From Muribaculum gordoncarteri (GTDB lineage: Bacteria > Bacteroidota > Bacteroidia > Bacteroidales > Muribaculaceae): a stretch of 64,000 nt of DNA. The first letter of the stretch is position 1; the number at the start of each line of letters is the position of its first letter. Positions 1,422 to 36,712 of this stretch are shown piece by piece. The notes beneath the pieces are model-generated. The model made no database searches and was not told the DNA's origin. It saw nothing but the letters and a program-made list of their open reading frames with translations. The stretch covers positions 3,038,001-3,102,000 of the forward strand of contig NZ_CP039393.1 of the NCBI RefSeq assembly GCF_004803695.1. The letters run 5' to 3'. Made by a program: the position numbers and the translations under genes.

Positions 1422-1686
1422 ATGGAATTTTCAGAAGTATTGGATCGTCGCCGCACCTACCGCGACTACTCCGACCGTGAAGTGAGTGATGAAATCCTCG
1501 ACAAAGTAATCTCGGCAGCTTTCAAGGCTCCGACCAACGACCATCTGCGCCAGTTCGAGTTTGTAGTGGTACGCGTTAAAACCGTTCTATAATCAACGGC
1601 AAAGTCCTCTGCTTCACCCGGTGGAACAAAGCTCGCTCAACTATTTCGCATCGGCATGGTGCGCTCTTGAAAACATGCTACTTTAG
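1422..1686 (+). pseudogene. Nitroreductase-family relic
   Basis: The ATG at 1422 opens a nitroreductase N-terminus: EVLDRRRTYRDYSDREV followed by ILDKVISAAFKAPTNDHLRQ, the FMN-phosphate-binding Arg-Arg-S/T-x-R region. It stops at 1592 after 56 residues. Further on, in another frame, NYFASAWCALENMLL ending at 1684-1686 matches the central helix of the same family. The segment between is lost, and so is the C-terminal half (normal length about 170-220 residues). Like its two neighbours it is an internally deleted remnant. A TAATTTTG box at 1377-1384 suggests it once had its own promoter. Confidence 0.8.
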
Positions 1687-1690
1687 AATC

Positions 1691-1722
1691 ATTGCACACT
1701 ATGTTGCAAGTAATTAACTTTG
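1691..1722 (+). promoter_or_regulatory. Promoter of the O-acetyltransferase
   Basis: ATTG at 1691-1694, 20 bases of spacing, then TAACTTTG at 1715-1722. This fits the Bacteroidota -33/-7 pattern. The ATG of the downstream gene lies at 1754. Confidence 0.65.
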
Positions 1723-1753
1723 CAAAATTAAATATAAGATATGGTTATTCAAT

Positions 1754-2311
1754 ATGACAGAAAAAGAAAAGATGCTGAAAGGCATGATATATGATGCCAA
1801 CAACGACCCCCGACTTATAGCCGAGAGAGCCGAATGCAAGGAATTGTGTCACGATTACAATCATCTTCGGCCAAAGGATGTCGAGGGAGGAAGAAAAATT
1901 ATCAAGGAACTGTTGGGCAGTGTAAAAGGAAACTTCTTGATAGAGCAGCCGTTCCTATGCGATTATGGCTATAACATACATATAGGTGATAATTTCTACG
2001 CCAATCATAATTTAGTGATACTTGACGGGGCTACTGTAAAATTTGGGGACAACGTGTTTGTCGCTCCTAATTGTGGCTTTTATACGGCAGGTCATCCGAT
2101 CGATGCCGCCGAGAGAAACAAGGGCCTCGAATATGCTCGTCCGATAACTGTCGGCAATGATGTGTGGATTGGTGGTAATGTGTGCGTTCTGCCGGGAGTG
2201 ACCATCGGCGATGATTGTGTAATTGGAGCCGGTAGCGTCGTGGTGAAGGACATTCCGCCTCACTCGGTAGCCGTCGGAAATCCGTGTAAAGTAATAAAGA
2301 AAATTAAATAG
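1754..2311 (+). CDS. Sugar O-acetyltransferase (maltose/galactoside acetyltransferase type)
   Basis: A 185-residue protein of normal length for the family that transfers acetyl from acetyl-CoA to a sugar hydroxyl in the cytosol. Residues 1-60 are the Mac/NodL N-terminal helical domain (EKMLKGMIYDANNDPRLIAER). The rest is a left-handed beta-helix of hexapeptide repeats (IGDNFYANHNLVILDGATVKFG, split here for length, then WIGGNVCVLPGVTIGDDCVIGAGS). The catalytic His is seen in the TAGHPID segment. It is intact although its neighbours on both sides are relics, and it has its own promoter at 1691-1722. The true acceptor sugar cannot be told from sequence. Confidence 0.88.
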   Translation: MTEKEKMLKGMIYDANNDPRLIAERAECKELCHDYNHLRPKDVEGGRKIIKELLGSVKGNFLIEQPFLCDYGYNIHIGDNFYANHNLVILDGATVKFGDNVFVAPNCGFYTAGHPIDAAERNKGLEYARPITVGNDVWIGGNVCVLPGVTIGDDCVIGAGSVVVKDIPPHSVAVGNPCKVIKKIK

Positions 2312-2437
2312 CAAATATGTTAAAGTGAAATAGCCTATATTAGCATGAGGCTCAGGGGATAGGGCCGCTTCCATGTAGGCTGACTCGGAGTGATATGTCA
2401 AAAAATAGTATATTTGCATCATGTAAAATATTATCTT

Positions 2438-2976
2438 ATGAAAGTTCTTATCGTTAACGGCAGTCCCCATATTGAGGGAGGCTGCACTGACCGCGCACTG
2501 TCTGCCGTCAGCACAGGCATTGCGTTTTCAATGACATTGTAAATGAAACCGCTCCCAAGCTTGCCGAGGCTGACGGTATTGTAATCGGAAGTCCGGTATA
2601 TTACGCCGGGTGCAACGGACAGGTGCTTTCATTCCTTGACCGCCTCTTCTACAGCACGAGTGGTGTTGTGAATAAAACCATGAAAGTGGGAGCAGCCGTT
2701 GTTTCATCCCGAAGAGCCGGCTCGACTTCAGCCTTTGACGAAATCAACAAATATTTTACCATCAGTGCCATGCCGATTGTTTCATCCACCTATTGGAATG
2801 AAGTGCACGGCTTCACCGCCACCGATGTAGAGGATGATCGTGAAGGGCTCCAGACAATGCGAAATCTCGGAAGAAATATGGCATTCCTTATAAAGGCAAT
2901 AAAGGCAGCAGCCCAAACCGACGGACTGCCGACGCAGGAAAGAGAGTCCTTAACAAGCTTCCACACCGAGCAATAA
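2438..2976 (+). pseudogene. Flavodoxin-fold NAD(P)H-dependent reductase relic
   Basis: The ATG at 2438 begins MKVLIVNGSPHIEGGCTDRAL, the FMN-binding start of the NAD(P)H-dependent oxidoreductase family, but stops at 2547. A second frame carries the rest: VFNDIVNETAPKLAEADG, IVIGSPVYYAGCNGQ, FLDRLFYS and a full C-terminus to 2976. About 30 codons are missing between them, including the CxxCxxC-like loop usual at this point, and the join is frameshifted. The C-terminal open stretch (internal ATG at 2623) lacks the FMN-binding loop, so it is unlikely to be functional by itself. Confidence 0.8.
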
Positions 2977-3135
2977 CAAACGCTCCCCGCGTTAGCGCCA
3001 AAGCTGCAGAGCAGCTTAATAATGTTAGGCCCGCGCAAGGCCGCCGTTAGGCGTCCGCAGCACGGGTATAGGGCACAGGGTACAACGCACCATAGAAAAA
3101 GGACTACGTAGTTGCCCAATAACCCACAAGCAATC

Positions 3136-3162
3136 CTGTATATGCCGTCAAGCATTACATGT
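3136..3162. repeat. 27-bp direct repeat, left copy
   Basis: Matches 3880-3906 at 26 of 27 positions (core TATATGCCGTCA, then A or G, then GCATTACATGT). The two copies flank the DUF6291-like gene. Confidence 0.75.
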
Positions 3163-3236
3163 GCGAAACTGCTTCGCGACATTATGGGGTGAAATCGGGG
3201 GGTTCGGCGCATTATTTTTGCAGGAAAAAAGTAACT

Positions 3237-3854
3237 ATGGAAAATAGAGCGAAAGTACAGAGCCGCCGAGGCAAGGGATTGAAGTTTGATCAGGAATGGA
3301 AGGATGCAGTCGACCGCCTTCCCAAGCATTACCGCGACGAGATATGCGCCGCAATCGAGGCCTATCAGCGCGACCTGATTGTAATTGAAGTTTCGGAGGG
3401 CGTTCCCCGCGCCATATTCATGCTCATCATGCCCACGATACGCCGCCGCTATCGTGCCCGTGAGCTTCGCCGCCTCGCCCGCGAGCGCAAGGCCGCATCA
3501 TCACGCCGCCAAGCGACCGAGCAAAGACCCTCCATCGTCCGCAACATCTCGGCGCAACCCAAGCCCGCAGTGCATCCCGCCCCTGTGAAGCAGCCCAAGC
3601 CCGCAATGCAGCCCAAGCCCGCAATGCAGCCCAAGTCCGCAATGCAGTCCGCTCCAGTGAAGCAGCCCAATAATCAACCTGAATCGGCATCTCCTGCTCC
3701 GGTAACGGTGCCAAGCGGCCAACAGTCCGTACCGATGGCCGAGCCCGCACCTGCCGCCGTCAATACACCTGCCGCCGGCCAACCGGGCAAAAGCACGCTT
3801 GAAAAGCTCATCGCCCACAGCTCACGCCGCCGCAACCGCCATCGCCGCCACTAA
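3237..3854 (+). CDS. Basic protein with DUF6291-like N-terminus and Pro/Lys/Gln-rich tail
   Basis: 205 residues from the ATG at 3237. This start is chosen because TATTTTTG, a -7-like box, lies at 3213-3220, and the longer frame from 3159 would begin inside a repeat. Residues 1-75 (FDQEWKDAVDRLPKHYRDEI, AAIEAYQRD, AIFMLIMPTIRRRYRARELR) resemble by eye the DUF6291 domain found in phage and plasmid replication-associated proteins. Residues 100-160 are low-complexity, with QPKPAMQ repeated three times. The C-terminus is strongly basic (SSRRRNRHRRH), suggesting nucleic-acid binding. It stands alone inside a repeat-bounded cassette, in GC-rich sequence unlike the AT-rich flanks. Function unknown; a phage-derived gene kept in the chromosome is one possibility. 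Confidence 0.6.
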   Translation: MENRAKVQSRRGKGLKFDQEWKDAVDRLPKHYRDEICAAIEAYQRDLIVIEVSEGVPRAIFMLIMPTIRRRYRARELRRLARERKAASSRRQATEQRPSIVRNISAQPKPAVHPAPVKQPKPAMQPKPAMQPKSAMQSAPVKQPNNQPESASPAPVTVPSGQQSVPMAEPAPAAVNTPAAGQPGKSTLEKLIAHSSRRRNRHRRH

Positions 3855-3879
3855 CCTAAGTGCAAAACAATACCCGGTG

Positions 3880-3906
3880 CTGTATATGCCGTCAGGCATT
3901 ACATGT
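3880..3906. repeat. 27-bp direct repeat, right copy
   Basis: Partner of 3136-3162 with one mismatch. It begins 25 bases after the DUF6291-like stop codon. Confidence 0.75.
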
Positions 3907-3975
3907 ATTTAACCGCGGGTTGCCATAGGCCCACCCGTGGGCCTCCACCCAACGGTAATCCACATGGATAGCGTT

Positions 3976-4094
3976 TTATTGGGCAGCTAACGCAGCCCTC
4001 GAGGGTGTGGGGGAGGCGCGCCATGACCTCACGCTGCACGCACCTAAAGGCGCGTTTGCATGAGGCTAACCTTATTGAGCAGCTAACGCAGCTC
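3976..4094. repeat. Pair of 23-bp direct repeats
   Basis: TTATTGGGCAGCTAACGCAG at 3976-3995 is repeated as TTATTGAGCAGCTAACGCAG at 4072-4091. The similarity runs 23 bases with two mismatches. Both contain the AGCTAACGCAGC element. The rest of 3855-4295 holds no gene: it is repeat DNA up to 4111, then an AT-rich leader with the small palindrome GGCTTTAAAAAGCC before the xylanase. Confidence 0.65.
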
Positions 4095-4256
4095 CCACGC
4101 TAACGCGGGGATTTACCGGCAGAGGGATGTGCAACCCACATTTCACTAAATTTATTTTTATTTTTTTTAGAAATGTGTTAAACCTTTTGAGCATGCATCG
4201 GTCTAACTAATGTCATGTTTGGCTTTAAAAAGCCTTTCATCCATGCCTAAAAATAA

Positions 4257-6449
<2,193 letters not shown>

Positions 6450-36513: not shown

Positions 36514-36518
36514 GGGAG

Positions 36519-36593
36519 TGGGCGCTGAGGGATTCGAACCCCCGACCCTCTGCTTGTAAGGCAGATGCTCTGAACCAGCTGAGCTAAGCGCCC
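36519..36593 (-). tRNA. tRNA-Val (anticodon TAC), copy 2
   Basis: The minus strand folds into a complete cloverleaf: acceptor GGGCGCT/AGCGCCC with discriminator A, D arm GCTCAGCTGGTTCAGAGC, anticodon stem TCTGC/GCAGA with loop CTTACAA (anticodon TAC), and T arm with GGTTCGAATCC. No CCA is encoded. Identical to 36638-36712. Confidence 0.97.
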
Positions 36594-36637
36594 GAAAATT
36601 TTTCGGGAACTTCAACGAAGAATGGGGTTTAATATTG

Positions 36638-36712
36638 TGGGCGCTGAGGGATTCGAACCCCCGACCCTCTGCTTGTAAGGCAGATGCTCTGAACCAGCTG
36701 AGCTAAGCGCCC
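36638..36712 (-). tRNA. tRNA-Val (anticodon TAC), copy 1
   Basis: The same 75 bases as 36519-36593, with a 44-base spacer. The two are probably cotranscribed from upstream (near 36713-36770) and end at the hairpin 36484-36513. They are recent duplicates or kept identical by conversion. Confidence 0.97.

Follow-up and report, generated by a model that had tools for sequence, protein, structure and literature searches.

The DUF6291-domain gene described here is probably part of a dispersed, vertically inherited, phage-derived particle system of the Muribaculaceae which, judged from sequence comparison, is most likely a gene transfer agent (GTA). The gene lies in the window, by which is meant the whole stretch of 64,000 nucleotides that was analysed (positions 3,038,001-3,102,000 of contig C1, in a genome of 3.43 Mb and three contigs), and gene content was read in stretches around search matches. 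One exact 23-bp element appears to drive the capsid and portal genes, the 817-aa protein and terminase genes, an endolysin gene, a lipoprotein gene and 13 DUF6291 genes, all from separate loci. The link to scattered capsid, portal, terminase and lysis genes is invisible from the window alone, in which the following features were located.

2984-3135, no strand: repeat block B, intergenic and outside the gene unit; found at about ten other places, many without the gene
3136-3162, no strand: left copy of a 27-bp direct repeat (the start of block A); block A also occurs elsewhere
3173-3195, plus strand: 23-bp promoter element TTCGCGACATTATGGGGTGAAAT, with 20 exact copies in the genome
3213-3221, plus strand: Bacteroidota-type -7 box TATTTTTGC, 17 nt after the 23-mer, a spacing kept at 20/20 sites
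3237-3854, plus strand: DUF6291-domain gene (205 aa; PF19808, E 4e-6), one of 13 dispersed co-regulated paralogues
3282-3521, plus strand: N-terminal three-helix DUF6291 domain, residues 16-95 (AlphaFold2 blocks mostly at pLDDT 91-95)
3522-3794, plus strand: proline-rich disordered tail, residues 96-186 (low pLDDT), with 18-bp coding repeats (repeat family D1)
3795-3848, plus strand: basic C-terminal helix (predicted), residues 187-204, its K/R-rich end kept in type-A paralogues
3880-3966, no strand: repeat block A, intergenic, its first 27 bp being the right copy of the direct repeat
3967-4119, no strand: repeat block C, intergenic, related to B as an inverted and diverged copy (its reverse complement aligns with B)

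The genome was scanned for the 23-mer with up to three mismatches allowed; 20 exact copies were detected, none with one to three mismatches, and none of the reversed control. The 23-mer was absent from 60 relatives, 13 congeners among them. Each of the 20 copies stands 17 nt before a TAnnTTTGC-type box, which is the -7 promoter element of Bacteroidota, and relative to this box the element spans -40 to -18. Thirteen sites precede DUF6291-type genes. The copy at 183.8 kb is followed by a 138-aa ORF, an SU10-type major capsid protein (SU10_MCP, PF17236, E 1e-46), a 180-aa protein and a P22-like portal (P22_portal, PF16510, E 3e-16; phrog_156, E 1e-30), that at 2728.7 kb by the 817-aa protein and a large terminase (phrog_2, E 5e-18), that at 2786.4 kb by an M15 endolysin (Pfam E 8e-20; PHROG E 4e-26), and that at 2562.7 kb by a small spanin-like lipoprotein with a C-terminal membrane segment. 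The remaining three sites are at rlmH, at one DUF6291 remnant and at a place without an intact gene. The rlmH copy (1194233-1194255 of C1) is exact, has the same spacing and lies in the promoter of this 23S rRNA methyltransferase gene, with a divergent nadC adjoining; rlmH, a housekeeping gene, seems to be tied into the regulon.

The capsid gene at 183 kb, the terminase at 2.73 Mb, the endolysin at 2.79 Mb, the lipoprotein at 2.56 Mb and the 13 DUF6291 loci are all carried on one contig, and the neighbours of the particle genes are housekeeping genes, named from their translations (moeB/thiF, polA, mannose-1-phosphate guanylyltransferase and 2-oxoacid:ferredoxin oxidoreductase genes). Elsewhere, in other genomes, the lipoprotein gene follows a portal gene and the endolysin gene follows a capsid gene, and these adjacencies link the dispersed genes back to a single ancestral set. 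The 817-aa family is related by profile to a prophage protein of phrog_32516 (hhalign E 3e-6), itself weakly similar to an internal virion protein; the 817-aa protein may be of virion type, the similarity being weak and remote. A structure model of this family, at pLDDT 33, was not used. Among the promoter-linked genes, none could be recognised as coding for a small terminase, a tape measure or a tail fibre.

The same promoter logic is found in congeners. Congener G007 carries 14 copies and G012 ten copies of CCAATTTTGCAGTA-N20(21)-TANCTTTGC (reversed control 0), and these precede nine and eight DUF6291 genes respectively, the capsid operon and the terminase operon, with the M15 endolysin gene in addition in G007. 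In G002, whose capsid contig matches Heminiphilus faecis AM35, a cultured congener with the capsid and terminase genes intact, 11/12 DUF6291 genes carry an GCCCGATT..CATAAA-type element, and the capsid and terminase promoters do likewise. The capsid and terminase of G011 share GACAATTTGTGGGTA, an element which is also present at the capsid operon of G008. These elements do not differ in position, which is about -35 to -18 relative to the -7 box, and when they are compared (for instance GACATTATGGGGTGAAAT in the present genome, G000, and GACAATTTGTGGGTAAAT in G011) they look like diverged forms of one operator. They would fit an activator overlapping the -33 region, with activator and site evolving together. 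An RNA-guided activator (TldR, dCas12f-sigma) was considered on account of the exact motif and is disfavoured: the motifs of the different species look point-mutated and keep one fixed position, so a protein operator fits better than an RNA guide. Two copies in G007 (C1:78525, locus L168, and C14:29894, locus L187) consist of the regulon promoter and the leader of the capsid operon with no capsid-like gene, and lie about 480-520 bp before ordinary host genes; these are possibly a case of promoter spread.

The reading frame of the window gene opens at 3159, and translation was taken to start at the ATG at 3237 because the -7 box lies at 3213-3221. The protein scores 27.2 bits against the Pfam family DUF6291 (PF19808), which is exactly the curated cut-off of 27.2, and the G002 paralogues match the same family at E 6e-13 to 8e-19. 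According to the predicted structure, the protein consists of only the N-domain of phage DUF6291 proteins, then the proline-rich stretch and the basic helix. The confident three-helix model had no solved-structure match at E <= 0.001, and a second structure comparison gave only Z values of about 4; on these results the fold can be called neither known nor new. A tblastn search of phage records returned no match to the window protein up to E 0.1. In viral contigs its sole relative lay at the edge of a provirus predicted in an isolate genome; this is a copy on the host chromosome, and it has the 23-mer and the upstream flank of the copy at 1.947 Mb. No papers mentioning DUF6291 were found in a literature search which covered few subscription journals.

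The 13 DUF6291 genes comprise the window gene, eight close paralogues and four genes of a second type, which are about 45% identical to the others in the N-domain. All 13 begin with the same 23-mer, and the DNA common to all units is only the 23-mer and ATGGAAA. For the nine type-A genes, compared over 70 codons of the N-domain, the median dS was about 1.1 and the median omega 0.037. The N-domain is under strong purifying selection and the paralogues are old, yet the 23-mer is invariant. The DUF6291 domain was also considered as the reader of the motif, and this is disfavoured, since two domain types of this divergence share exactly the same 23-mer. The tails vary between paralogues, those of G002 being longer and different in sequence. 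Multiple copies occur only in some members of one genus, with none or one to two weak matches in other genomes of the family, and no DUF6291 paralogues were detectable in several congeners (G004, G009) where the capsid and terminase are present. As these do without them, the paralogues are accessory.

This distribution bears on whether the DUF6291 genes could be selfish riders that captured the capsid-regulon promoter and multiplied in some species with no benefit to the particle system. Their restriction to part of one genus, the retention of capsid and terminase in congeners that lack them, the free variation of their C-terminal parts and the presence of one remnant copy are all in keeping with such an origin. 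We nevertheless regard it as unlikely, as the selection on the N-domain is strong, three different promoter motifs were recruited in different species, and signatures of transposition are absent.

Prophages of the same family encode DUF6291 proteins (PF19808; phrog_15768, phrog_16304) whose N-terminal domain is homologous to that of the window gene. Directly downstream of these genes comes either a helicase loader of DnaC type (phrog_3277) or a primase-helicase (phrog_239), and two of the proteins have C-terminal parts that match replication-initiation and primosomal families. The window paralogues differ in being stand-alone, multi-copy and promoter-linked, and in carrying proline-rich or other tails and not the phage C-terminal part. 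Since the phage genes adjoin helicase loaders in replication modules, the paralogues may act on replication. Their 13 loci are also more evenly placed than random (CV 0.48, P 0.005 from 20,000 draws, in a post hoc comparison with C1 assumed to be circular). Together, the tails, the even spacing and the prophage context suggest, as a working hypothesis, that while particles are being made the dispersed paralogues influence replication or the state of the chromosome or nucleoid. This is the least certain step of the gene transfer agent reading, and is put forward tentatively. More doubtful still is the further proposal that 10-13 evenly spread replication-type genes, under the same operator as the capsid and terminase, drive or mark chromosome-wide replication and that Bacteroidales GTA particles would sample the whole genome.

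The even spacing and the place of DUF6291 in phage replication modules could also indicate that the units are dispersed pac or ori loci of phage type, each a small-terminase-like or initiator gene with its site, so that packaging would start at points round the chromosome. The title of one publication (PMC2697382) associates run-off replication with the GTA of Bartonella, which would offer a parallel. The shortness of the DNA common to the 13 units tends to speak against this, however, and with synonymous sites near saturation a site of this kind located in the coding sequence could only be short or degenerate, which is conceivable; this explanation is improbable too.

The particle genes themselves are distributed far more widely than the paralogues. 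Among 118 genomes of the family that are at least 90% complete, the capsid gene was found in 109 and the terminase gene in 112, each in 25/26 genera and mostly once. Where both are on one contig, the distance between them ranges from 2 kb to several hundred kb and is 2-9 kb in some genera; the degree of dispersal therefore varies, and some close pairs may be prophages. The terminase ATPase motif and three acidic nuclease positions are kept in all complete sequences. Trees of ten congeners were compared for the host gene PolA, the capsid (MCP) and the terminase (TerL), and each of the three PolA splits with full support is also present, with support 100, in the MCP and TerL trees (permutation P 0.004-0.007), a congruence that consists of these three well-resolved splits, the others being poorly resolved in all three trees.

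Several individual loci show other arrangements. In two loci of other genera (L226 and L238) an 817-aa-type gene, terminase, capsid and portal form a compact set in a row, and in a further locus (L256) an 817-aa-type gene and the capsid-portal operon, with no terminase, lie between ftsZ and sugar-nucleotide genes. Two more conserved ORFs, of about 146 and 160 aa, follow the portal gene in L226 and L256. In G001 (L163) IS21-type genes stand directly after the capsid gene and in G010 (L164) the capsid frame is split; both genomes are without DUF6291 paralogues, and the capsid loci of this clade show signs of decay.

The criteria for a GTA were taken from PMC9662315, which accepts similarity as evidence of caudoviricete-derived particle proteins and also asks for particles filled mostly with random host DNA, a GTA genome that is too large to be packaged whole, and delivery to other cells; those that can be tested on sequences were applied. 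The putative particle proteins are derived from caudoviricetes, as indicated by similarity at the level of genes alone (SU10_MCP, P22_portal, terminase and endolysin), and the genome is endogenised at several loci. Inheritance is mostly vertical with host co-diversification, as seen from the three PolA splits and the presence of the two genes in 109 and 112 of the 118 genomes, with otherwise limited resolution. The loci are hundreds of kb apart, and full packaging of the GTA genome is therefore very likely impossible. In the proposed mechanism, a putative specific activator would bind the -33 region and switch on all loci together, short-tailed capsids would assemble, the terminase would package pieces of the chromosome through the portal, and the endolysin and lipoprotein would release the particles.

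The same genes might instead be a scattered prophage domesticated for some other purpose, such as a killing particle, a nanocompartment or regulated lysis, and moving no host DNA. The failure to recognise a small terminase or tail fibres among the promoter-linked genes is in keeping with such a system, but a terminase with intact ATPase and nuclease motifs is kept family-wide together with the portal, which would be costly if no DNA were packaged, and we consider this quite improbable.

The initial annotation had presented the window gene as the cargo of a repeat-bounded cassette, and much of what it described was confirmed. The outer inverted repeat (2984-2997 with 4098-4111) lies inside a 24-nt pair (2984-3007/4088-4111, 83% complementary), the inner one (3113-3122 with 3976-3985) is present as 3109-3122/3976-3989, and the two copies of the direct repeat (3136-3162 and 3880-3906) are identical at 26/27 positions. 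A single gene lies between them, its N-terminus DUF6291-like as proposed (exactly at the Pfam cut-off) and its tail, by prediction, proline-rich and disordered with a basic end; there is no transposase inside the unit, and the adjoining pseudogene is real, being a flavodoxin-type reductase gene on the left with three stops in 2437-2976. Chance does not account for the flanking repeats, which belong to a dispersed family. The boundary role given to them did not hold up. A genome search with 2940-4160 returned 60 places in two separate sets, one of flanking blocks only and one of the gene family with its promoter. Blocks A, B and C, together or singly, are found at a dozen or more gene-free places, and no flanking direct repeats above background were detected at the 12 other DUF6291 copies. 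They are general intergenic repeats unlinked to the gene, an outcome named beforehand as one that would count against the cassette.

When the gene and one 27-bp copy are omitted and the flanks joined, their alignment to gene-free repeats near 601.8 kb and 2721.1 kb runs through the junction, so the window copy sits within an older intergenic repeat. That the unit is a small MITE-like cassette moved in trans, as the repeats flanking the window copy and the gene-free matches to its joined flanks might suggest, is highly improbable, given that the repeats are widespread without the gene and missing from the other 12 copies, and that the promoter is shared by all 13 units while no terminal sequence is. 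Of the proposed undescribed mobile or domesticated element, what survives is a compact, domesticated unit that recurs around the genome; the repeat-bounded mobile cassette does not.

The repeats of about 140 bp (2984-3135 and 3967-4119) form a GC-rich intergenic family that is also present at about 786, 2745, 2752 and 2976 kb, often in pairs of inverted neighbours (B then C) with a 60-bp A block nearby; no Rfam match was found in the repeats up to E 0.1 when 1500-5000 was searched. A second pseudogene near the window gene is a truncated N-terminal fragment of the nitroreductase family at 1422-1592 (PF00881, E 3e-8, 44 residues). To the right of the repeats, 4296-6449 encodes a two-domain enzyme, a fusion of GH10 xylanase and esterase (PF00331, PF00756), and two tandem tRNA-Val (tac) genes are located at 36518-36593 and 36637-36712 on the minus strand.

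As a probable gene transfer agent, the Muribaculaceae set can be compared with several known systems. It resembles the GTA of Rhodobacter capsulatus and its relatives (RcGTA, Rhodogtaviriformidae), whose genes occupy five loci in R. capsulatus (PMC9662315), in having phage-derived head, portal, terminase and lysis genes that are endogenous, vertically inherited and placed at several loci. It differs in phylum, in its far more numerous loci (20 promoter copies), in its DUF6291 paralogue family and in being of the short-tailed SU10/P22 type, known from genes alone, whereas RcGTA is siphovirus-like. The Brachyspira GTA (VSH-1/BhGTA) is similar in that terL, single copy and conserved in the genus, stands apart from the structural genes (PMC9662315), but those form one 16.3-kb cluster and the lineage is unrelated. 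In work of 2026 on capsid-packaged DNA from human faeces, GTAs were reported for Faecalibacterium and its relatives; for Bacteroides the process reported was lateral transduction and not a GTA (PMC12946183). The Faecalibacterium agent (FpGTA) likewise belongs to a gut bacterium and has two separate operons, short-tailed-phage-like proteins and a separate lysis operon (PMC12946183); its host is a Firmicute, FpGTA I is one 10.5-kb operon, and its particles and packaged DNA have been shown, whereas for the Muribaculaceae it is the genes that are known.

The nearest phages are the temperate Bacteroides phages BF1-TP2, BS-TP4 and BKO1-TP3, with capsids 35-38% and terminases 41-43% identical; for BF1-TP2 the values are 38% for the capsid, 41% for the terminase and 34% for the portal. 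Unlike the dispersed set these are phage genomes of 64-68 kb, and the capsid, terminase and portal are side by side in BF1-TP2. No significant match to the 817-aa protein or the window gene was found in them.

In the gut of mice and other mammals, few Bacteroidota are commoner than the Muribaculaceae. No description of a GTA in the Bacteroidales or Muribaculaceae was found in the literature search, with its limited reach into subscription journals, and prophage finders would miss such an agent because its genes are scattered and linked only by the promoter. The search approach, in which an exact genome-specific promoter motif ties together lone phage-type genes, is usable for other dispersed GTAs. 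If the gene transfer agent reading is true, this would be an independent GTA lineage with a clear and testable regulon, in a phylum for which none was found described, and the function of DUF6291 would become testable. A GTA carried by nearly the whole family would then give gut communities a permanent route for exchanging genes.
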